NCBI GenBank assembly: GCA_000230955.3
Contig: CP007060.1
Coordinates: forward strand, 2,672,216 to 2,736,215
DNA: 64,000 nt
Reading direction: 5' to 3'
DNA from: Halobacterium sp. DL1
GTDB lineage: Archaea > Halobacteriota > Halobacteria > Halobacteriales > Halobacteriaceae
Shown in pieces: positions 15,893 to 26,631 of this stretch (its first letter is position 1; each line of letters starts with the position of its first letter). Under the pieces are notes generated by a model that had not been told where the DNA came from, searched no databases, and was given only the letters and a program-made list of their open reading frames with translations. Position numbers and translations under genes: made by a program.

Positions 15893-15997
15893 ACGGAGTG
15901 GATGGCCGCGACGCGAATGAGTCTTACCCGCTCCGGCGAGCGCGGGCGGGACGAGGGTGTGGGGCGTTCTCCGTTCACTTCCACCCCGCTTTGCGAA

Positions 15998-16008
15998 CCT
16001 TCTTAGGC
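15998..16008 (+). promoter_or_regulatory. TATA-like box of mcm
   Basis: CCTTCTTAGG lies 25-33 bases upstream of the mcm ATG at 16032, the spacing expected for a leaderless or near-leaderless haloarchaeal transcript. It supports the start at 16032 over upstream in-frame codons. Confidence 0.45.
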
Positions 16009-16031
16009 GAGCACGCGCTACCTTACCCAGA

Positions 16032-19000
16032 ATGGCCCAGGCCGCAAACCAGGAGCTCGTCGACAGGTTCGAGGAGTTCTACCGCCGGTACTACAGCGAC
16101 GACGTCGCGGAGCTCGCGCGGGAGTACCCCCGCGAGTCGAAGTCGCTAGAGCTGGACTGGCGGGACCTCTACCAGATGGACCCCGACCTGGCCGACGACT
16201 ACATCAACCACCCCGACCAGCTCGAGGAGGCCGCCGAGGAGGCCCTCCGGCTCTACGACCTCCCGGTCGACGTCAGCCTCGGGCAGGCCCACGTGCGCGT
16301 CTTCGGCCTCGAGGAGTCCACGGAGATCCGGGACATCCGCGCCGAACACCTGAACACGCTCATCGGCGTCCAGGGGATGGTGCGGAAGGCGACGGACGTG
16401 ATGCCGAAGATCCAGCGCGCGGTGTTCGTCTGCCAGCGCTGTGGCGCCGAGACGGAGGTCCCACAGAGCGACGCCGGCTTCCAGGAGCCCTACCAGTGCG
16501 AGAGCTGCGAGCGACAGGGCCCGTTCAAGCTCGACCCCGAGCGCTCGGAGTTCGTCGACGCCCAGAAGCTCCGCATCCAGGAGTCCCCCGAGGGGCTCTC
16601 CGGCGGCGAGACACCCCAGAGCATCGACATCCACATCGAGGACGACATCACTGGCGAGGTCACCCCCGGCGACCACATCACCGCCACCGGCGTCCTCCGC
16701 CTCGACCAGGGCGAGGAGTCGACAGACTCCCCGGTCTTCGACCTCTACATGGAGGGGTCGTCCATCGTCGTCGAGGACGAGGAGTTCGAGGAGATGGACA
16801 TCACCGAGGAGGACAAACAGCAGATCATCGAGATCAGCGAGCGCGACGACATCTACGAGCAGATGGTCGACTCGATGGCGCCCGCCATCTACGGCCACCG
16901 CGAGGCCAAGCTCGCGATGATGCTCCAGCTGTTCGCCGGCGTCACCAAGGAGCTCCCGGACGGCTCGCGCATCCGCGGCGACCTCCACATGCTCCTCATC
17001 GGTGACCCGGGTACGGGTAAGTGCGTCCGCGGCGATACCACGGTGACGCTGGCAGACGGGAGCGAACACGAGATCCGAGACCTGGTCGAAGCCAACCTCG
17101 ACGACCCCAAATCCATCGACGATGGCGTCTGGGACGACGCCGACCTGGAAGTCCCGTCGCTCGCACCCGACGGGACGCTCGTCCAGCGCCGCGCGACGAA
17201 GGTCTGGAAGCGCGAGGCAACGGAGTCGATGTACCGCGTCCGGACGGCAAACGGCCACGAACTCACCGTGACACCGAGTCACCCACTCTTCGTCCCAGGG
17301 ACGAACGGTCCCGAGGCTGTGCGGGCCGAGGAGTTGAGTGAAGGACAGTTCGTGGCGACCCCGAGGCGTCTAGACACAAACGGCGACGACAGCCTCGACG
17401 TTTCCTACCGCGAGGCAGAGTCGTACAACGCGGTCCACATCGACCTCCCCGACGAGTGGACGCCGTGGCTCGCACGCCTGGTCGGCTACGTCGCTGCTGA
17501 AGGATACGTCGAACAGCGCGACGACAACACGGGCTACGTCTCCGTGACGAACAACGACGAGGAGGTGCTCGACGACGTGAAAGACGCCCTCGACGAACTC
17601 GGCGCGAACTACGTCGAGCGCGAACCACACGACGGGAAGTCGGCACGGGAGGTGATCTGTGGGTCCGGCGAGCTCGTGAGTTTCCTCCACGAACTCGATG
17701 CGGGCCTGCTCGACGGGTCGGCAGACAAACGCGTCCCGAACGCCGTGAAGCGAGCGTCCGACGGAACCAAACGCGAGTTCCTCACTGCATTCGTAGAAGG
17801 CGAAGGGCACGTGGCCGCGAGCGAGCGCGAGATAACCGTCGCCTCGACCAGCCGAGAGCTACTCGAAGGCGTCCGGTCGCTGCTGCTGTCGCTCGACATC
17901 ACGAGCCAACTGCACCCGCGAGAGAACGGGAGCTACCGGCTCCGCATCAGCGGCGAGATGTTCGAAAAGTACGTCACCGACGCCGGGTTCGTCACGGACC
18001 GGAAATCCGAAGCCGCAGCGTCGTTCGAGGAGACGAGCGGGAACACGAACACCGACGTCGTTCCCGTCGACGGCGGCGAACTCCGGTCCATCCGGAACGA
18101 GCTCGGACTGACGCAGGCCGATTGCGGAATCCCTCGCTCGACGTACCAGCACTACGAGCGGGGGAGCCGGAACCCGAGCCGTGGGAGTCTCTCTACGGTC
18201 GCGTCGGCGTTCTCCGAGGCAGTAGACGAGACAATGGCCGCCGACGGCGGGACGAACGTGTCGTCGAGAGTCGGCGCCGTGGAGGCGGCAGCGACCAATG
18301 ATGTCGCCTGGGACCGCATCGAATCCATCGAGGAAGTCGACACCGACGAGGAGTGGGTGTACGACCTCGAAGTCGAGGGTACGCACAACTACCTCACCGA
18401 CGGCGTGGTCTCGCACAACTCCCAGATGATTTCGTACGTCCAGAACATCGCGCCGCGCTCGGTGTACACCTCCGGGAAGGGGTCGTCCGCGGCCGGTCTG
18501 ACGGCGGCAGCGGTGCGCGACGACTTCGGCGACGGCCAGCAGTGGTCACTCGAGGCAGGTGCACTCGTCCTCGCCGACCAGGGCGTCGCCGCGGTGGACG
18601 AGCTGGACAAGATGGCCGACGACGACCGGTCGGCGATGCACGAGGCGCTCGAACAGCAGAAGATCTCCATCTCGAAGGCGGGCATCAACGCGACGCTGAA
18701 GGCGCGCTGTTCGCTGCTGGGTGCGGCGAACCCGAAGTACGGTCGCTTCGACCAGTACGAGCCCATCGGCGAGCAGATCGACCTCGAGCCCGCGCTCATC
18801 TCGCGGTTCGACCTCATCTTCACGGTGACGGACAAGCCCGACCCGGAGGAGGACGCGAAGCTCGCCCGGCACATCATCCAGACGAACTACGCGGGCGAGC
18901 TGAACACGCAGAACGACAACATCGCGAACGCGAACCACTCGGCCGAGGAGATCGACGCCCAGACGGAGAACGTCGCGCCCGCCATCGAGTCGGACCTCCT

Positions 19001-19523
19001 GCGGAAGTACATCGCGTACGCCCGCCGGAACTGCTACCCGACGATGACCGACGAGGCCAAGTCGGCCATCGAGGAGTTCTACGTCGACCTCCGCTCGAAG
19101 GGCCAGGACGAGGACGCCCCCGTCCCAGTAACCGCCCGACAGCTCGAGGCGCTCGTCCGGCTCGCGGAGGCGTCGGCGCGGCTGCGGCTCTCCGACCGCG
19201 TCGAGGCCGAGGACGCCGACCGCGTCATCTCCATCGTGCGGTCGTGCCTGCAGGACATCGGCGTCGACCCCGAGACCGGCGAGTTCGACGCCGACGTCGT
19301 CGAGACCGGGCACTCGAAGACCCAGCGCGACCGCATCAAGAACATCAAGGGACTCATCAAGGAGATCGAACAGGACTTCGACGAGGGCGCGCCCATCGAG
19401 GAGGTGCTCGACCGCGCCGAGGAGATCGGCATGGACGCCGACATGGCCGAACACGAGATAGAGAAGCTCAAGGAGAAGGGCGAGCTCTACCAGCCGAACA
19501 AGGACCACCTCCGCTCGATCTGA
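16032..19523 (+). CDS. mcm: Replicative helicase MCM, interrupted by an intein
   Basis: Minichromosome maintenance helicase that unwinds DNA at the fork as a hexamer. The precursor is 1163 residues; without the 466-residue intein the mature protein is 697, the usual archaeal size. The N-terminal domain has a zinc site (CQRCG and CESCE). Walker A is GDPGTGK/SQM with the intein exactly between Lys and Ser, Walker B is AVDELDKM, and the arginine-finger motif is SRFDLIF. The C-terminus ends in a winged-helix domain. ATG at 16032 (MAQAANQ) is chosen because upstream codons would put coding sequence over the TATA-like box. The stop overlaps the next ATG (TGATG). Confidence 0.97.
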   Translation: MAQAANQELVDRFEEFYRRYYSDDVAELAREYPRESKSLELDWRDLYQMDPDLADDYINHPDQLEEAAEEALRLYDLPVDVSLGQAHVRVFGLEESTEIRDIRAEHLNTLIGVQGMVRKATDVMPKIQRAVFVCQRCGAETEVPQSDAGFQEPYQCESCERQGPFKLDPERSEFVDAQKLRIQESPEGLSGGETPQSIDIHIEDDITGEVTPGDHITATGVLRLDQGEESTDSPVFDLYMEGSSIVVEDEEFEEMDITEEDKQQIIEISERDDIYEQMVDSMAPAIYGHREAKLAMMLQLFAGVTKELPDGSRIRGDLHMLLIGDPGTGKCVRGDTTVTLADGSEHEIRDLVEANLDDPKSIDDGVWDDADLEVPSLAPDGTLVQRRATKVWKREATESMYRVRTANGHELTVTPSHPLFVPGTNGPEAVRAEELSEGQFVATPRRLDTNGDDSLDVSYREAESYNAVHIDLPDEWTPWLARLVGYVAAEGYVEQRDDNTGYVSVTNNDEEVLDDVKDALDELGANYVEREPHDGKSAREVICGSGELVSFLHELDAGLLDGSADKRVPNAVKRASDGTKREFLTAFVEGEGHVAASEREITVASTSRELLEGVRSLLLSLDITSQLHPRENGSYRLRISGEMFEKYVTDAGFVTDRKSEAAASFEETSGNTNTDVVPVDGGELRSIRNELGLTQADCGIPRSTYQHYERGSRNPSRGSLSTVASAFSEAVDETMAADGGTNVSSRVGAVEAAATNDVAWDRIESIEEVDTDEEWVYDLEVEGTHNYLTDGVVSHNSQMISYVQNIAPRSVYTSGKGSSAAGLTAAAVRDDFGDGQQWSLEAGALVLADQGVAAVDELDKMADDDRSAMHEALEQQKISISKAGINATLKARCSLLGAANPKYGRFDQYEPIGEQIDLEPALISRFDLIFTVTDKPDPEEDAKLARHIIQTNYAGELNTQNDNIANANHSAEEIDAQTENVAPAIESDLLRKYIAYARRNCYPTMTDEAKSAIEEFYVDLRSKGQDEDAPVPVTARQLEALVRLAEASARLRLSDRVEAEDADRVISIVRSCLQDIGVDPETGEFDADVVETGHSKTQRDRIKNIKGLIKEIEQDFDEGAPIEEVLDRAEEIGMDADMAEHEIEKLKEKGELYQPNKDHLRSI
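17022..18419 (+). mobile_element. Intein with LAGLIDADG homing-endonuclease domain in MCM
   Basis: The element is 466 residues, starting at Cys (CVRGDTTVTLADG, block A) and ending at His-Asn (GTHNYLTDGVVSHN, blocks F/G), with Ser as the first residue of the C-extein. Block B is LTVTPSHPLF. Two LAGLIDADG-type motifs are LARLVGYVAAEGYV and FLTAFVEGEGHV, both with Glu in the catalytic position, so activity is possible but not certain. A helix-turn-helix resembling XRE (ELGLTQADCGIPRSTYQHYERG region) follows. It splices itself out of the protein after translation. The insertion splits the ATP-binding P-loop, a favoured site for inteins. Confidence 0.96.
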
Positions 19524-21034: not shown

Positions 21035-21535
21035 ATGCGACTGGAAACCGAGACGCACCGCCGGGGTGGCGTAACGCTCGTCGCGGTGCGGGTGACGAAC
21101 GACGGCGACCAGCCACAGCGGGTCCGCGTGGCGAACCGCTCTGACGGCACGGTCTGGCCGCCGCGCCAGCGGGGCCTGCCCGAACCGGGCTGGGACGACG
21201 GTGGCTGGGAGGGCGTCCTCGACGCCGGGGCGACCAGGGCGCTCGGCTACGCAACTGCAGCGCCGCCAGCGGACCCACCGGTGGAGTTCGCGTGGACCGA
21301 GCGTGCTGCGGACGGCGAACCCACGACGACGGAGGCCTTCGCGGAGTTCGGTGACCCCCGTCCACCACGGGATGTGGTCGCACCACCGACCACGGCGCTC
21401 CCGAAGGACGTGCACGAGTGGCTCGCGGCCGTCTCGGAGCGCGCAACCGACGGCGAGGCGACCGACGCGGACCGCGAAGGCGTCGCGGCGCTGGCGGCTC
21501 GCGCGGGCGTGCTCCAGGCCCGGGTGGAGGAGTGA
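21035..21535 (+). CDS. Conserved haloarchaeal protein upstream of minD-like gene
   Basis: A 166-residue protein. Its first half looks like a beta-sandwich (GGVTLVAVRVTNDGDQPQRV), as in domains of the CARDB/Ig type, followed by an acidic linker and a helical C-terminus. The start is ATG 21035; the upstream frame is open but overlaps the previous gene. It ends GTGA-overlapping the MinD-like gene. Unknown function. Confidence 0.75.
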   Translation: MRLETETHRRGGVTLVAVRVTNDGDQPQRVRVANRSDGTVWPPRQRGLPEPGWDDGGWEGVLDAGATRALGYATAAPPADPPVEFAWTERAADGEPTTTEAFAEFGDPRPPRDVVAPPTTALPKDVHEWLAAVSERATDGEATDADREGVAALAARAGVLQARVEE

Positions 21536-22188
21536 TTCTCGCGGTCTGCGGCGGGAAGGGGGGCGTCGGCAAGACGACGGTGGCGCTGAACCTCGCGGCG
21601 GAACTCGAGGCCGTGCTGGTGGACGCTGACCTCGGGATGGCGGACGTGCCCGCCGGGCGAGGACCCGACCTCCACGACGTGCTCGCGGGCCGGGCGGACC
21701 CCGTCGAGGCGGTCCGGGAGCACGACGGTGTCCGATTGCTCCCCTGCGGACGGACGCTCGCCGGTGCTCGCGAGGGCGACCCGCGACGACTCGTCGACGC
21801 CGTTCGAGCCGTCGAGGAGGAGTACGGCGACGTAGTGGTCGACTGCCCCGCGGGCCTCCGCGCGGACGTCGGTCTCCCCCTGCTCGCGGCCGACGCCTGC
21901 GTCGTGGTGACGACGCCCGACCGGGCGGCGCTCGCCGACGCACTGCGGGCGCGCTCGCTCGCCGTCGAACTCGACGCGGGGGTGGCGGCCGTGGCGTACA
22001 ACCGCGCGAGCGATGCCGACGAGGCGGTCGCCGACGCACTGGGCGCACCCGTCGTCGCCGTGCCGGAGACCGACGTCGTCGGGGAGACGCTCCCGACGGG
22101 GCGGCCGGTGCGGACGCTCGCACCGGCGGCGACGGCGGCAGAACAGTTCGAGCTGCTGGCGGCCCGCGTTCAGTCCTGCAGGTCGTAG
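21532..22188 (+). CDS. MinD/ParA-family ATPase
   Basis: A 218-residue P-loop ATPase of the MinD/ParA class. The deviant Walker A is intact (CGGKGGVGKTT at about 5-15), switch I is LVDADLGMADV and the Walker B-like strand ends VVDCPAGL. Such proteins switch between ATP-bound dimer and monomer to position DNA or protein complexes. It lacks the C-terminal amphipathic helix of classical MinD. The start is GTG 21532, overlapping the previous stop. It ends the mcm-side gene run and converges with tfb by 19 bases. Archaeal MinD paralogues have roles in cell polarity; this one is unassigned. Confidence 0.88.
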   Translation: MILAVCGGKGGVGKTTVALNLAAELEAVLVDADLGMADVPAGRGPDLHDVLAGRADPVEAVREHDGVRLLPCGRTLAGAREGDPRRLVDAVRAVEEEYGDVVVDCPAGLRADVGLPLLAADACVVVTTPDRAALADALRARSLAVELDAGVAAVAYNRASDADEAVADALGAPVVAVPETDVVGETLPTGRPVRTLAPAATAAEQFELLAARVQSCRS

Positions 22189-23027
22189 TACGTCGAGCGC
22201 AGCGTCACCGGCGTTACGTCTGCGACGTCCGCGGCGTCGGCCTGCGTGAGCGCCGCCCCACAGTCCTCGGCGCCAGCGTAGAGGCACGCAGCGGCGACCC
22301 CACTCGGGTTGCGCCCAGAGAGGAGGTTCCGTCTCTCGGCGATGTCGACGTACTCGCGGGCGCTGCGCTCGACGTCCGTGGAGAGGTCGAGTTCGCTGGC
22401 GTACCGCGGGACGTAGTCACGGGGGTCGATGGGACCGGTCGGGAGGCCGAGGTCGCGGTTCATCGCGTCGTAGGCCGCCGAGAGCTCCGACTCGTCGCCG
22501 CGGGACACGTGCTCGATTTCCGCGAGCGTGCGGGAGAGGCCGTTCGTGCGGCAGACCGCGTACACAGCCGCCGCGGCGAACCCCTCGATTGAGCGCCCGC
22601 GGAGCAGGTCCTCGGTCTGGGCGGAGTCGAACAGCGCACACGCCTGGTCGCGGACGCTCCGCGGGAGCCCGAGCGCGCCGACGATGCGCCGGATCTCCGT
22701 GAACCCGTACACCTGGTTCCGGTCGGCTTTCGACCCGATGCTGGCGCGCTTGTGCTGGCGGCGGAGGCGCGCGAACTTCCGGCGCTTGCGGCCCTTCAGT
22801 CGCGTCGAGCGACCGATCTCCGTCGAGAGGCCCCTGTCGTGGCGGGAGCGCGTGAGCGGCGCTCCTGTGCGTTCGGGGTTCGTGTCGTCGTCGTCGAACG
22901 ACCGCCACTCCGGGCCGCGGTCGATGCGGTCCTCGCAGACCACGAGGCCGCAGTCGGTGCAGACGCGTTCGGTCTCCTGCTTGCGCACGACGCCCTCGCA
23001 CTCGGGGCAGTTCGCTGACTGGCTCAT
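22170..23027 (-). CDS. tfb: Transcription initiation factor TFB
   Basis: TFIIB homologue of 285 residues that bridges TBP on the TATA box with RNA polymerase. The N-terminal zinc ribbon has CPEC and CTDC, the B-finger/linker region includes GPEWRSFDDDD, and two cyclin folds follow (about 100-190 and 195-285). The second repeat carries the C-terminal recognition helix for the BRE. Haloarchaea keep several TFB paralogues and this is one of them. A TATA-like box sits 28-35 bases upstream. The 3' end overlaps the convergent MinD-like gene by 19 bases. Confidence 0.95.
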   Translation of the reverse strand: MSQSANCPECEGVVRKQETERVCTDCGLVVCEDRIDRGPEWRSFDDDDTNPERTGAPLTRSRHDRGLSTEIGRSTRLKGRKRRKFARLRRQHKRASIGSKADRNQVYGFTEIRRIVGALGLPRSVRDQACALFDSAQTEDLLRGRSIEGFAAAAVYAVCRTNGLSRTLAEIEHVSRGDESELSAAYDAMNRDLGLPTGPIDPRDYVPRYASELDLSTDVERSAREYVDIAERRNLLSGRNPSGVAAACLYAGAEDCGAALTQADAADVADVTPVTLRSTYYDLQD

Positions 23028-23062: not shown

Positions 23063-23169
23063 CGCGGGACGAACCGCCCGAATTCGTCCATCAGACGCCG
23101 AAAGAACGTACCGGTCACCGGTACGCTTCACGGCGGAATAGCGTTTTGTCACCTCGAAACTGGTCGAAA

Positions 23170-23200: not shown

Positions 23201-23713
23201 ATGGGACTGTCGGACATCGCGGACGGCCTCACGGTCACCACCCGCCAGCGCGAGCGCGGAGTGGCGAGCGTCGACCGCACCGGCGGGTCGCTCGCCGACC
23301 GACTGGCCGACGCGGCCGAGGACCTCCCGTGTTCGGCGGAAACGGCCGCAGAACTGGCCGAGGCGTACGCGGGCGGCGCGAGCGTCGGTACCGCCGCCTC
23401 GGAGACCGGTGTTGCGGCGACGACGGCCGCGAAGACGCTCCACCTGCTCGGCTTCGAGGGATTGACGCCGTTCTCGCCGCTCCAGCGCGAGATCCTCGAG
23501 GATTGGCTAGACGCGCGCTGCTCACGGGCCGACGCGGTCGAACTCACGGGGGCGAGCGACCGGGAGTTCGTGCTCGCAGCGTTCGTCGCGACGCACGACC
23601 CGCTGGACGGTGCTGCAGAAGCCGTCGAGAGCGCGCTCTCCTCGGCAGACGACGCGATGGTCGCCAAGCGGGACGCGCTCGCGGCCGCGATGCCCGACCC
23701 GGACTCAGGCTAG
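23201..23713 (+). CDS. Conserved haloarchaeal protein, helical
   Basis: A 170-residue, mostly helical acidic protein. It contains what looks like a helix-turn-helix: AGGASVGTAASETGVAATTAAKTLHLLG (segment around residue 55-80), suggesting DNA binding. It lacks a membrane segment. It converges with the degenerate ParA-like gene, overlapping it by nine bases. Its position between tfb and two ParA-family genes suggests a role with DNA, but the family is uncharacterised as far as I know. Confidence 0.75.
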   Translation: MGLSDIADGLTVTTRQRERGVASVDRTGGSLADRLADAAEDLPCSAETAAELAEAYAGGASVGTAASETGVAATTAAKTLHLLGFEGLTPFSPLQREILEDWLDARCSRADAVELTGASDREFVLAAFVATHDPLDGAAEAVESALSSADDAMVAKRDALAAAMPDPDSG

Positions 23714-24445
23714 TTTCTCCCGCGCCGTGTCGAGCAGCGAGTCGTCCTCGAACTCGACGCCGACGGTCGTCTCGAACAGCGACTCCGCCAGCGCTGCGAC
23801 GCTCGCGGTGAACGCTCCCGTACCGGTCAGCGCAGCGGGTTCTCCGGGAATACCCTCCTCCTCGTGTGTGGGGAGCGCGTGGTCGGTGTCGGCCGGCGCG
23901 TCGACGGTGCGGTTCGCGACCGCGAGGTCGAAGTCGCTGCCGACGTCCGCGAGACGGCCGCGAGCGCGCTGGAGGCTGTCGACGCCGCGGTCGCCCGGCG
24001 GCAGCACGGCGGCCACGCGACCCGCGCTCGTGACGGCGGCGACCGCCTGGTTGGCCGCGACGGGCGGCGTGTCCACGAGCACGTAGTCGTGGGAGGCGCC
24101 GAGGTCGGCGAGCACGCTCTGGACGCGTTCGGCGGCTTCCGGTGCCTTCGCCGCTGCGAGGCGCTCGAACGGAGCGAACGCGGGGTAGGTCGCGAGTTCA
24201 CCGTCCGCGGCCGGCGCGAGGTCACAGCGCACGGCCGCGGGGTCGGCGTCGTCGGTGAGGAGCGCGGTGGCGTCGGGGTCGATGCGTCCGGAGACGTACT
24301 GGGAGAGCCCCTGCGTGGCGAACGCGGCGTCGAGGACGCCGACGCTCGCACCGTCGCGGGCGAGCAGAGCGGCGGTCTCGACGCAGAGGCGTGTCGCGCC
24401 CGCGCCGCCGGCGACACTGACGAGCGCGGCAGTGCGTGGCTGCAT
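23705..24445 (-). CDS. ParA/MinD-like protein with degenerate P-loop
   Basis: A 246-residue protein with the overall fold pattern of ParA/MinD: an N-terminal strand-loop-helix, VLDAAFATQGL at the switch I place and YVLVDTPPVAANQ at the Walker B place. The P-loop reads SVAGGAGATRLC where KGGVGKTT is expected. Both the signature lysine and the P-loop lysine are missing, so ATP hydrolysis is unlikely. It may act as a non-catalytic partner of a true ParA-type ATPase. An AT-rich box at 24471-24480 suits the ATG at 24445. Confidence 0.8.
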   Translation of the reverse strand: MQPRTAALVSVAGGAGATRLCVETAALLARDGASVGVLDAAFATQGLSQYVSGRIDPDATALLTDDADPAAVRCDLAPAADGELATYPAFAPFERLAAAKAPEAAERVQSVLADLGASHDYVLVDTPPVAANQAVAAVTSAGRVAAVLPPGDRGVDSLQRARGRLADVGSDFDLAVANRTVDAPADTDHALPTHEEEGIPGEPAALTGTGAFTASVAALAESLFETTVGVEFEDDSLLDTAREKLA

Positions 24446-24470: not shown

Positions 24471-24480
24471 CTAAAATTTA
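24471..24480 (-). promoter_or_regulatory. TATA-like box of degenerate ParA gene
   Basis: TAAATTTTAG (minus strand) lies 26-35 bases upstream of the ATG at 24445 and overlaps the last codons of the histidine-kinase gene. Confidence 0.55.
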
Positions 24481-26130
24481 GTCGTTCGGCCGTACTGTGG
24501 CGACGGCCTGGACGCGAGTGACCTCGAAACGCGCGCCGCCGACCTCGCTCTCGACGGCCGCGACTTGCCAGCCGTGCGCGTTGGCGATACCCGCGACGAT
24601 GGCGAGGCCGAAGCCGGTGCCGTCCTTGGCGGTCGTGTACCCGGGTTCGAACACCGCGTCCCGGTCGTCTGCGGGGATGCCCGGGCCGTCGTCCTCGACG
24701 TAGAAGCCCTTGCCGTCGTCGAGCGCGCCGACGGTGACCGTGACGGCGTCGCCACCGTGTTCGAGGGAGTTGCGGAACAGGTTCTCGAACAGCTGGACGG
24801 TGCGGTCGTGGTCCGCCTCGAAGCGGAGCGGGGAGGCGACGGCGAGCGTGGCGTCGCCCGTCTCCACGTTCCGCCAGCTCGTCTCGGCGAGGTCGCCGAG
24901 GTCGCAGGCCTCGGTGTCGCCGATGGTCTCCCCCTGGCGGGCGAGCGCGAGCACGTCCTCGATGAGCGCCTCCATGCGGTCGTGGGCGTTCGCCACGGTG
25001 ACGAGGTGTTGGTCGTCCCGTTCGTCGCGGGCGAGGTCGAGGTGTCCCCTCGCGACGTTCAGCGGGTTGCGGAGGTCGTGGGAGATGACGTTGGCGAACT
25101 GGCCGAGGCGCTCGTTCTGCCGCTGGAGTTCGCGGCGGTGGCGCTCGCTGGGGGTGACGTCCGAGAACAGCAGCATCTCACCGAGCGACGTGCGGCCGAC
25201 GGTGAACGGGTTGGCGGCGACGAGGAAGTAGCGGCGCTCGCCCGCCAAGTCGAGTTCGAGCACCTGCTCGTCGTCGTCCAGCGCGGCCGCCACGCGGGGG
25301 AGTACGACGGACAGCCGCTCGCCGTTCGTGTCGCCCTCGAGTTCCGGGAACAGTTCGCCGGCCATCCGGTTGTGGTCCTTGAGGCGGCCGTCCTCGTCGA
25401 CGAAGACGACGGGGTCGTCGATGTCCCCGGTGAGCCGGATCGTCTGGAACCGCTCGGCGAAGACGTAGAGGACGCCGACCGAGAACGCCGCGACGCCGAT
25501 GGGTTCGTAGGTCATGTCCACGAGTCGTGGGCTGGCGTAGCCGACGACGTTGAACGCGACGGGGAGCGCGGTGAGTGCCGCTAGCCCGGCGAGCGGCCGC
25601 GCGTCGATGCTCGTCCGGTCGAACAGCTCCAGGAGCATGAAGTAGCCGACGGCCGCCAGCGCGTACGCCAGCCCCGTCACGACCCAGTGCAGGGTGCCGC
25701 TGTGGACGACGACGTGCGGGAACGGCGACGTCGCGAACGACGTCGTGAAGTACGCGTGGTGGATCGGGTTCGTCACCTTCACGAGCGTGACGGCACCGAA
25801 GACGGCGAGCGCGGCCGCCCGGTAGCGGGGGTCGCGGTGCATCGTCCGGCCGCTGTACGCCGAGCAGAAGTAGAGCCACGCGCCGGTGGTGCTGAACCCG
25901 ACGACGAGGCCGACGACGTGGAACGCTACCTTCAGGTCGGCGCCCGGCGCCAGCAGGAACCCCACTTGCGCGGCCGCCCAGCCGCCGCTAGTGACCAGCA
26001 GCGCGGCGAACCCCCGGCGCGTGTCCGCAGCGTCGATGCGCGAGACGTGGCAGAGGCTGACCGCGCAGACGACCGCCGCGGTGGCGAAGGCGGCGACGTA
26101 GGCGGCCAGTTGCGGGTCGATGCTCGCCAT
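24478..26130 (-). CDS. Membrane sensor histidine kinase (7TM, PAS, HisKA, HATPase)
   Basis: A 550-residue two-component kinase. The N-terminal 225 residues form seven hydrophobic segments of the HisKA_7TM type. A PAS-like domain (about 235-330, DPVVFVDEDGRLKDHN) follows, then the phosphoacceptor His in FANVISHDLRNPLNVA. The ATPase domain has the N-box (FENLFRNSLEHGG), G1 (VEDDGPGIP) and G2 (GTGFGLAIV). The signal is unknown. No response regulator adjoins; the receiver at 7251 is distant. Transcription is probably from the gap with the HIT gene. Confidence 0.93.
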   Translation of the reverse strand: MASIDPQLAAYVAAFATAAVVCAVSLCHVSRIDAADTRRGFAALLVTSGGWAAAQVGFLLAPGADLKVAFHVVGLVVGFSTTGAWLYFCSAYSGRTMHRDPRYRAAALAVFGAVTLVKVTNPIHHAYFTTSFATSPFPHVVVHSGTLHWVVTGLAYALAAVGYFMLLELFDRTSIDARPLAGLAALTALPVAFNVVGYASPRLVDMTYEPIGVAAFSVGVLYVFAERFQTIRLTGDIDDPVVFVDEDGRLKDHNRMAGELFPELEGDTNGERLSVVLPRVAAALDDDEQVLELDLAGERRYFLVAANPFTVGRTSLGEMLLFSDVTPSERHRRELQRQNERLGQFANVISHDLRNPLNVARGHLDLARDERDDQHLVTVANAHDRMEALIEDVLALARQGETIGDTEACDLGDLAETSWRNVETGDATLAVASPLRFEADHDRTVQLFENLFRNSLEHGGDAVTVTVGALDDGKGFYVEDDGPGIPADDRDAVFEPGYTTAKDGTGFGLAIVAGIANAHGWQVAAVESEVGGARFEVTRVQAVATVRPND

Positions 26131-26171: not shown

Positions 26172-26600
26172 TCAATTCGCGGCCGCCGAGATGTCGTCGG
26201 CGATGTCGTCAAGTTCGTCGTCGGAGAGCTCGGGACGACTGCCGGCGACGGCGTGGATGGGGTTGCCGCCGTCGTCCTCGAAGCGCGGAATGACGTGGCC
26301 GTGTACGTGGGGGACCTCCTGGCCGGCTGCCGCGCCGTTGTTGAACGCGACGTTGCTGCCGTCGGCGTCCACGCTCTCCTCGACGACCGGCGTGAGGTCG
26401 TGGAGCGCCGCGAAGACGGACTCGCCGTCGTCCGCGGGCAGGTCGCCGAGCGTCTCGTAGTGGTCTTTCGGGATGACCAGCGTGTGGCCGGGCGCGAGCG
26501 GGTTGGCGTCGAGGAACGCCAGCACGTCGTCGTCCTCGTAGACGACCCGCGCGGGGATGTCCCCGGCGACGATGCTACAGAAGATGCAGTCCTCGGACAT
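26172..26600 (-). CDS. HIT-family nucleotide hydrolase
   Basis: A 142-residue histidine-triad protein that cleaves nucleotide phosphoramidates or dinucleoside polyphosphates. The triad is HVHGHVIP, and the N-terminus has CIFCSIVAGDIPA, a zinc-associated Cys pair in some HIT proteins. The start at ATG 26600 (MSEDCIFC) is preferred over the open frame to 26627 because it matches the family N-terminus. Confidence 0.93.
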   Translation of the reverse strand: MSEDCIFCSIVAGDIPARVVYEDDDVLAFLDANPLAPGHTLVIPKDHYETLGDLPADDGESVFAALHDLTPVVEESVDADGSNVAFNNGAAAGQEVPHVHGHVIPRFEDDGGNPIHAVAGSRPELSDDELDDIADDISAAAN

Positions 26601-26631
26601 AGCGTACCCCAGGAACGCCGTCACCAAAAGG

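Follow-up and report, generated by a model that had tools for sequence, protein, structure and literature searches.

A lysine-less ParA-fold protein conserved in haloarchaea, and the DUF7858 protein as its candidate partner

The proteins of the ParA/MinD group are seen as clocks and positioners that run on ATP. The window, which is the whole stretch of DNA analysed (G000:C1:2672216-2736215, 64 kb from the chromosome of a haloarchaeon), encodes a protein of this fold in which both P-loop lysines are replaced, here called lysine-less ParA. The relevant features of the window are as follows.

21035-21535, (+) strand: DUF7857 protein, gene in start/stop overlap with the MinD-like gene (PF25256, E 2e-30)
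21532-22188, (+) strand: intact MinD-like ATPase, MinD1-like (TIGR01969, E 4.8e-34, below its cut-off)
22170-23027, (-) strand: TFB-type transcription factor, divergent from DUF7858 (Pfam TFIIB, synteny)
23104-23128, core 23108-23124, no strand: 25-bp palindrome GAACGTACCGGTCACCGGTACGCTT between TFB and DUF7858 (intergenic comparison)
23201-23713, (+) strand: DUF7858 protein, 170 aa, predicted all-helical with HTH-like units (PF25257, E 1e-68; model pLDDT 82.0)
23705-24445, (-) strand: lysine-less ParA/MinD-fold protein, 246 aa (ORF, translation, orthologues, AlphaFold2 model)
24386-24412, (-) strand: degenerate P-loop, residues 12-20 AGGAGATRL, with K to A12, K to A17 and T to R19 (alignments of 63 orthologues and of the MinD-like family)
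24305-24331, (-) strand: Walker A' region, residues 39-47 DAAFATQGL, D39 kept and second Asp replaced by A41 (alignment)
24146-24148, (-) strand: K100, candidate stand-in lysine and the only Lys conserved in the family (58/63 orthologues)
24062-24082, (-) strand: Walker B, residues 122-128 VLVDTPP, Asp125 kept (63/63)
26172-26627, (-) strand: HIT-family-like gene, which we take to be of the HIT family, upstream of lysine-less ParA and in the same direction (synteny)

The DUF7858 and lysine-less ParA genes are convergent, and their 3' ends overlap by 9 bp. An earlier sequence-only reading had placed an intact MinD-like gene 1.5 kb from lysine-less ParA, and this gene was found at that distance with its GGKGGVGKTT motif complete. 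The neighbours of lysine-less ParA found by query were MCM, DUF7856/7857, MinD-like, TFB, DUF7858, HIT-like and IleRS genes. Their usual order, read from 40 longer loci of other genomes, is MCM, DUF7856, DUF7857, MinD-like, TFB (reverse), DUF7858, lysine-less ParA (reverse), HIT-like (reverse) and IleRS, with which 80 named loci agree, including that of Haloferax larsenii (L147). Several groups, among them Haloarcula, Halorubrum and Halorientalis, have a reduced neighbourhood, in which lysine-less ParA is accompanied by the HIT-like gene alone or by this gene together with DUF7858 and TFB. The HIT-like gene is the usual upstream neighbour in other genera, mostly at a distance of 38-160 bp; in the window, a histidine kinase gene (24478-26130) separates the two. 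By eye, an AT-rich, TATA-like stretch precedes the start of lysine-less ParA in most of 32 upstream regions, so the gene may have its own promoter. At the scale of the chromosome, an orc1/cdc6 gene at 1197-2510 starts the 2,846,968-base contig G000:C1, and on a circular contig the distance between the locus and this likely origin would be about 151 kb.

The frame of lysine-less ParA is intact, and residues 10-21 at the deviant Walker A site read SVAGGAGATRLC. Alignment to the family of the MinD-like neighbour places the signature lysine at A12 and the Walker A lysine at A17, such that the window sequence has AGGAGATR in place of KGGxxK[ST] with both lysines. G13, G14, G16 and the Mg-site threonine T18 are retained, each in 63/63 orthologues. 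The loss itself, which the sequence-only reading had suggested checking in orthologues, proved to be conserved: among 63 distinct orthologues, lysine is found at neither position in any of them. The signature-lysine position is occupied by T (31), A (22), V (9) or C (1) and the Walker A lysine position by T (45) or A (18), within a near-invariant GG[AV]G[AT]TR; R19 and E23 are each found in 62/63, and one orthologue (L041) has a lysine at residue 10, off the motif positions. These 63 rows were drawn from 171 positive genomes as the 30 best matches plus 40 chosen for genus spread from among the matches listed, minus 7 duplicates. The 80 named loci were excluded from the P-loop counts because their search patterns contained the motif.

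The second Walker A' aspartate is the catalytic residue in MinD and Soj. It is replaced in 58/63 orthologues, including the window protein (A41), with A in 53, D in 5, N in 3 and S in 2 at this position. The first Walker A' aspartate, D39, is kept in 63/63 within the family consensus LDAAFATQGL, and T44, G46, D58, P127, N132 and D167 are also invariant among the 63. At the T44, G46 and N132 columns, the family of the MinD-like neighbour has other residues. Lysine is scarce throughout, with a mean of 1.56 per protein. The suggestion of the sequence-only reading that the protein is non-hydrolysing is thus strengthened by the loss of the Walker A' aspartate, short of proof.

In its own genome lysine-less ParA is a single copy, and its nearest named relatives are from Halobacterium species. 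An order-wide search of 293 genomes gave matches at E<=0.001 in 229 and orthologues at E<=1e-15 in 171; the weaker matches are taken to be other ParA-type proteins, except in G160, which was scored absent though its contig ends inside a lysine-less ParA gene, the first part of which is 81% identical. When 196 genomes of the phylum were searched with a profile, clear orthologues (E<=1e-69) occurred within the order only, and outside it only generic ParA-like matches were obtained (E>=4e-15). All 28 pairs of 8 Halobacterium sequences had dN/dS of 0.18-0.51, and by this measure the gene evolves under purifying selection. Hence, the conservation, the dN/dS values and the order-restricted orthologues together mark the lysine loss as an old, selected family feature and not as decay. 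The loss of both P-loop lysines and, in most members, of the Walker A' aspartate predates the diversification of the order.

The AlphaFold2 model of lysine-less ParA, built with 55 named relatives, had a pLDDT of 95.6 and a pTM of 0.91, and the predicted fold is that of ParA/MinD. The top structural match in VIA-align was MinD of P. furiosus (1g3q, Z 25.9, 2.7 A, 219 aligned), followed by P. horikoshii MinD (1ion, Z 25.5), Soj (24.8), FleN (5j1j, 23.6) and BcsQ (about 21). Sequence profiles agree with this fold (A. fulgidus MinD, E 5e-10). Translation, alignment and model are therefore in accord with the original observation that the P-loop lysines are absent and the rest of the fold is kept. 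No model passed in the NCBIfam scan: the archaeal MinD model TIGR01969 gave 24.5 against a cut-off of 201.75 bits and the BcsQ model TIGR03371 gave 18.8 against 157.85 bits. The sole Pfam model above its cut-off was MipZ (23 versus 20.7 bits, E 5.6e-05); we rejected MipZ membership because the match is confined to residues 12-143 and the NCBIfam scan had yielded nothing above cut-off. A receiver domain like that of TadZ was not seen in lysine-less ParA, and the neighbours found by query gave no tad context.

Archaeal MinD and Soj share with lysine-less ParA the fold over residues 2-227, Walker B, the Mg-site threonine and the first Walker A' aspartate, but lysine-less ParA lacks both P-loop lysines and mostly the second Walker A' aspartate, and has Arg instead of Thr after the P-loop. 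ParA-fold proteins without these lysines are already known elsewhere, namely TadZ and BcsQ. According to the part of PMC10482377 covered, TadZ of E. rectale has the ParA/MinD fold and has lost both conserved lysines, and its ATPase activity is reported to proceed via a compensating lysine of the neighbouring helix; it differs from lysine-less ParA in this reported compensation and in acting in Tad pilus assembly. BcsQ, in the covered part of PMC9178275, has the P-loop RGGVGTT, in which the Walker lysine is Thr as in most lysine-less ParA orthologues (GGAGTT), and its PDB entry 6ybb is ATP-bound according to the entry title. The partners of BcsQ are BcsR/BcsE, with which it acts in cellulose secretion, whereas lysine-less ParA appears to have a different partner. 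The FleN-FleQ pair, again from the covered part of PMC9178275, offers the likeness of a ParA-fold protein that controls a DNA-binding regulator, but the KGGVGKT of FleN is intact, and its partner FleQ belongs to the AAA+ activators, in contrast to the small helical DUF7858. McdA has an altered signature lysine (SGGQGKT; same source and extent), but retains the Walker A lysine and positions carboxysomes.

Presence was scored in the 293 genomes at E 1e-15 for lysine-less ParA (171 positive) and 1e-40 for the MinD-like gene (196), both thresholds having been set after the lists were seen; 168 genomes were positive for DUF7858, 200 for DUF7857 and 161 for the palindrome, these last three counts matching the tallies given by the searches themselves. 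Lysine-less ParA and DUF7858 were both present in 167 genomes and both absent from 121, with lysine-less ParA only in 4 and DUF7858 only in 1 (phi 0.965), the genomes being non-independent and the counts being of genomes, not of separate loss events. For the MinD-like gene and DUF7857, the corresponding numbers were 193 with both, 3 and 7 with a single one and 90 with neither (phi 0.923). Across these pairs, phi fell to 0.64-0.66. The values within and across pairs thus divide the block into lysine-less ParA with DUF7858 and the MinD-like gene with DUF7857. The genomes with lysine-less ParA and without DUF7858 were G180 (72% complete), G193 (a truncated remnant that was scored present), G115 and G250, and the one with the reverse pattern was G144, in which the DUF7858 copy is divergent.

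The pairs can also be seen apart from one another. Lysine-less ParA and DUF7858 are kept together even where they are unlinked, at distances of 111 kb (G020), 205 kb (G208), 226 kb (G279), 473 kb (G098) and 633 kb (G137). The block of H. salinarum (L076) has both of these genes and neither the MinD-like gene nor DUF7857, and conversely the DUF7857-MinD pair stands alone in f4 and f8 genomes (L201-L205) and together with TFB in L200. In three Halobacterium genomes (G049, G088 and G129; L163, L164 and L165), the whole block from DUF7856 to lysine-less ParA is gone, which leaves MCM close to the HIT-like gene. Because the genes are adjacent, the co-loss of lysine-less ParA and DUF7858 is partly one deletion. 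The data on gene content indicate DUF7858 as the partner of lysine-less ParA and suggest DUF7857 as the candidate partner, and likely companion, of the MinD1-like gene.

The DUF7858 model is all-helical, with a pLDDT of 82.0 overall and above 90 in the core. Structural searches gave no significant match to this fold (best Foldseek E 0.6, best VIA-align Z 5.8), which is no argument for a new fold, and the DNA binding predicted for DUF7858 consequently draws on weak matches. Most of these are helix-turn-helix proteins, KorB, Noc, Spo0J and SopB among them, with ParB-type HTH matches at E 0.7 or worse.

A palindrome with a score of no less than 16/24 against the consensus GAACGTACCGGTNACCGGTACGTTC was found in 89/91 TFB-DUF7858 intergenic regions, some of them duplicates from the same genomes, compared with 11/1,820 shuffles. 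The core within one mismatch was present in 124/168 genomes with DUF7858 versus 37/125 without it. Upstream of the two TFB genes without DUF7858 that were inspected (L200, L174), the palindrome was not found. In the genome of the window, the full core occurs once only, with five other sites at two mismatches; two sites match the reversed control pattern. The core has decayed in H. salinarum (L076) and in G144 (L169). The simplest reading of the palindrome is a candidate operator of DUF7858, to which the DUF7858 protein probably binds. Genus g27 (G023, G054; L190, L191, L193, L194, L196, L199) has 7-8 sites within one mismatch, with 2 and 5 exact sites. We considered the palindrome as a marker of a wider regulon and rejected it: such numbers of sites are confined to genus g27, and in the loci read their flanking genes have no obvious common theme.

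What these results share is a fold kept under selection along with the Mg-site threonine, the Walker B aspartate and a new near-invariant arginine, R19, in a protein whose presence tracks DUF7858. We propose that lysine-less ParA is a conserved haloarchaeal pseudo-ATPase whose partner, DUF7858, is a regulator that binds the palindrome, a proposal for which we regard the case for and against as evenly balanced. DUF7858 would act at its own promoter, common with the divergent TFB gene, by binding the 25-bp palindrome there, and lysine-less ParA would bind DUF7858 and tune its DNA binding without a cycle of ATP hydrolysis. By analogy, it would act as FleN does on FleQ, but with the switch dead or permanently set. 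DUF7858 and the TFB gene opposite it would probably be the genes so controlled, with the direction of regulation likewise conjectural. Against the proposal stand the weak matches behind the predicted DNA binding (E 0.6, Z 5.8), the whole-block deletions in G049, G088 and G129 that together with adjacency make co-loss partly a single event, the retention of lysine-less ParA without DUF7858 in G115 and G250, and the decayed core in H. salinarum. The fuller form of the pseudo-ATPase proposal is a ParA-type system of two proteins and a DNA site, in which a pseudo-ParA fixed in one or no nucleotide state controls DUF7858 and thereby the TFB variant; this we hold to be rather unlikely, with perhaps one chance in a few. 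If true, no ParA-CBP-like pair had, to our knowledge, been shown before to lack the ATPase cycle thought to define such systems.

The strongest rival is an active nucleotide switch of the TadZ/BcsQ type, with K100 or R19 replacing the lysines and DUF7858 as cargo or effector; the protein would bind ATP and either hold it or hydrolyse it slowly. The precedents of TadZ and BcsQ make lysine loss compatible with ATP binding or use, which also weighs against the pseudo-ATPase proposal. K100 and R19 are the obvious candidates to stand in, since K100 is the only lysine conserved in a family with so few of them (58/63), and R19 (62/63) accompanies a T18, D39 and D125 that are each invariant. Five of the 63 orthologues even retain the second Walker A' aspartate, but its absence from the other 58 argues against such a switch, which we consider a tentative but serious minority possibility.

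A role in chromosome positioning similar to that of ParABS is doubtful. Here DUF7858 would be the centromere-binding protein, the palindrome its site and lysine-less ParA a non-classical motor or tether. The ParA fold, the HTH-like partner with its weak KorB, Noc, Spo0J and SopB matches, the palindrome near the partner gene and the position some 151 kb short of the contig end, on a contig with orc1 at its start, are all in keeping with it. However, there is one full-core palindrome in the window's own genome, and its promoter position suits an operator; the block has been lost repeatedly, which would not be expected if it were essential for segregation; and the residues of the motor, namely the P-loop lysines and the Walker A' aspartate, are absent, so by its sequence the protein does not appear to be an active ParA.

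The idea of the sequence-only reading that lysine-less ParA might serve the adjacent MinD-like ATPase as an inactive partner or as a lock did not find support and is, in our view, very improbable. The genes share a conserved block in most genera and co-occur moderately (phi 0.64), but they dissociate in both directions, with lysine-less ParA lacking that MinD in 13 of the 293 genomes and the reverse in 38, and that MinD tracks DUF7857, with which alone it travels in L201-L205. Finally, a decaying pseudogene, which the degenerate motif and the truncated remnant of another species (G193, L168) might bring to mind and which was to be expected if orthologues kept intact P-loops, is rejected with near certainty, given open frames and a conserved motif without the lysines in 63/63 rows and dN/dS below 0.52 in all 28 pairs.

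Retention of the fold throughout an order without its catalytic residues raises the question of what it is good for once the clock is gone. Within the literature searched, we found no experiments on lysine-less ParA, and neither the haloarchaeal family nor its link with DUF7858 nor the palindrome appears to have been described. The text covered of PMC11588486 and PMC11621097 treats four MinD proteins of H. volcanii, HVO_0225 being MinD1, and contains no mention of lysine-less ParA. HVO_0226 is called a 'TFB variant' in the covered part of PMC13286277 and is probably the H. volcanii counterpart of the TFB in the window. HVO_0227 and HVO_0228 are a guess, as the tags expected from the neighbouring HVO_0225 and HVO_0226; for these tags and for DUF7858 no paper was found in the literature searched, most subscription papers being outside its reach. 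The genetics of H. volcanii, a specific candidate partner and a DNA site make the proposed partnership directly testable. It would amount to an unrecognised layer beside a TFB variant placed, in the covered part of PMC13286277, in the network of motility and cell shape, and for studies of MinD1 it brings in DUF7857 as the likely companion.

At the MCM end of the block, the remnant in G193 (L168 6325-6510) lies beside MCM, as if the block had been caught mid-loss. G049 is close to the window species in this region, with MCM pieces 96-97% identical. The MCM helicase ORF of the window (15957-19523, 1188 aa) has an apparent intein at its Walker A motif (GTGK/C...HN/S), as judged by eye.
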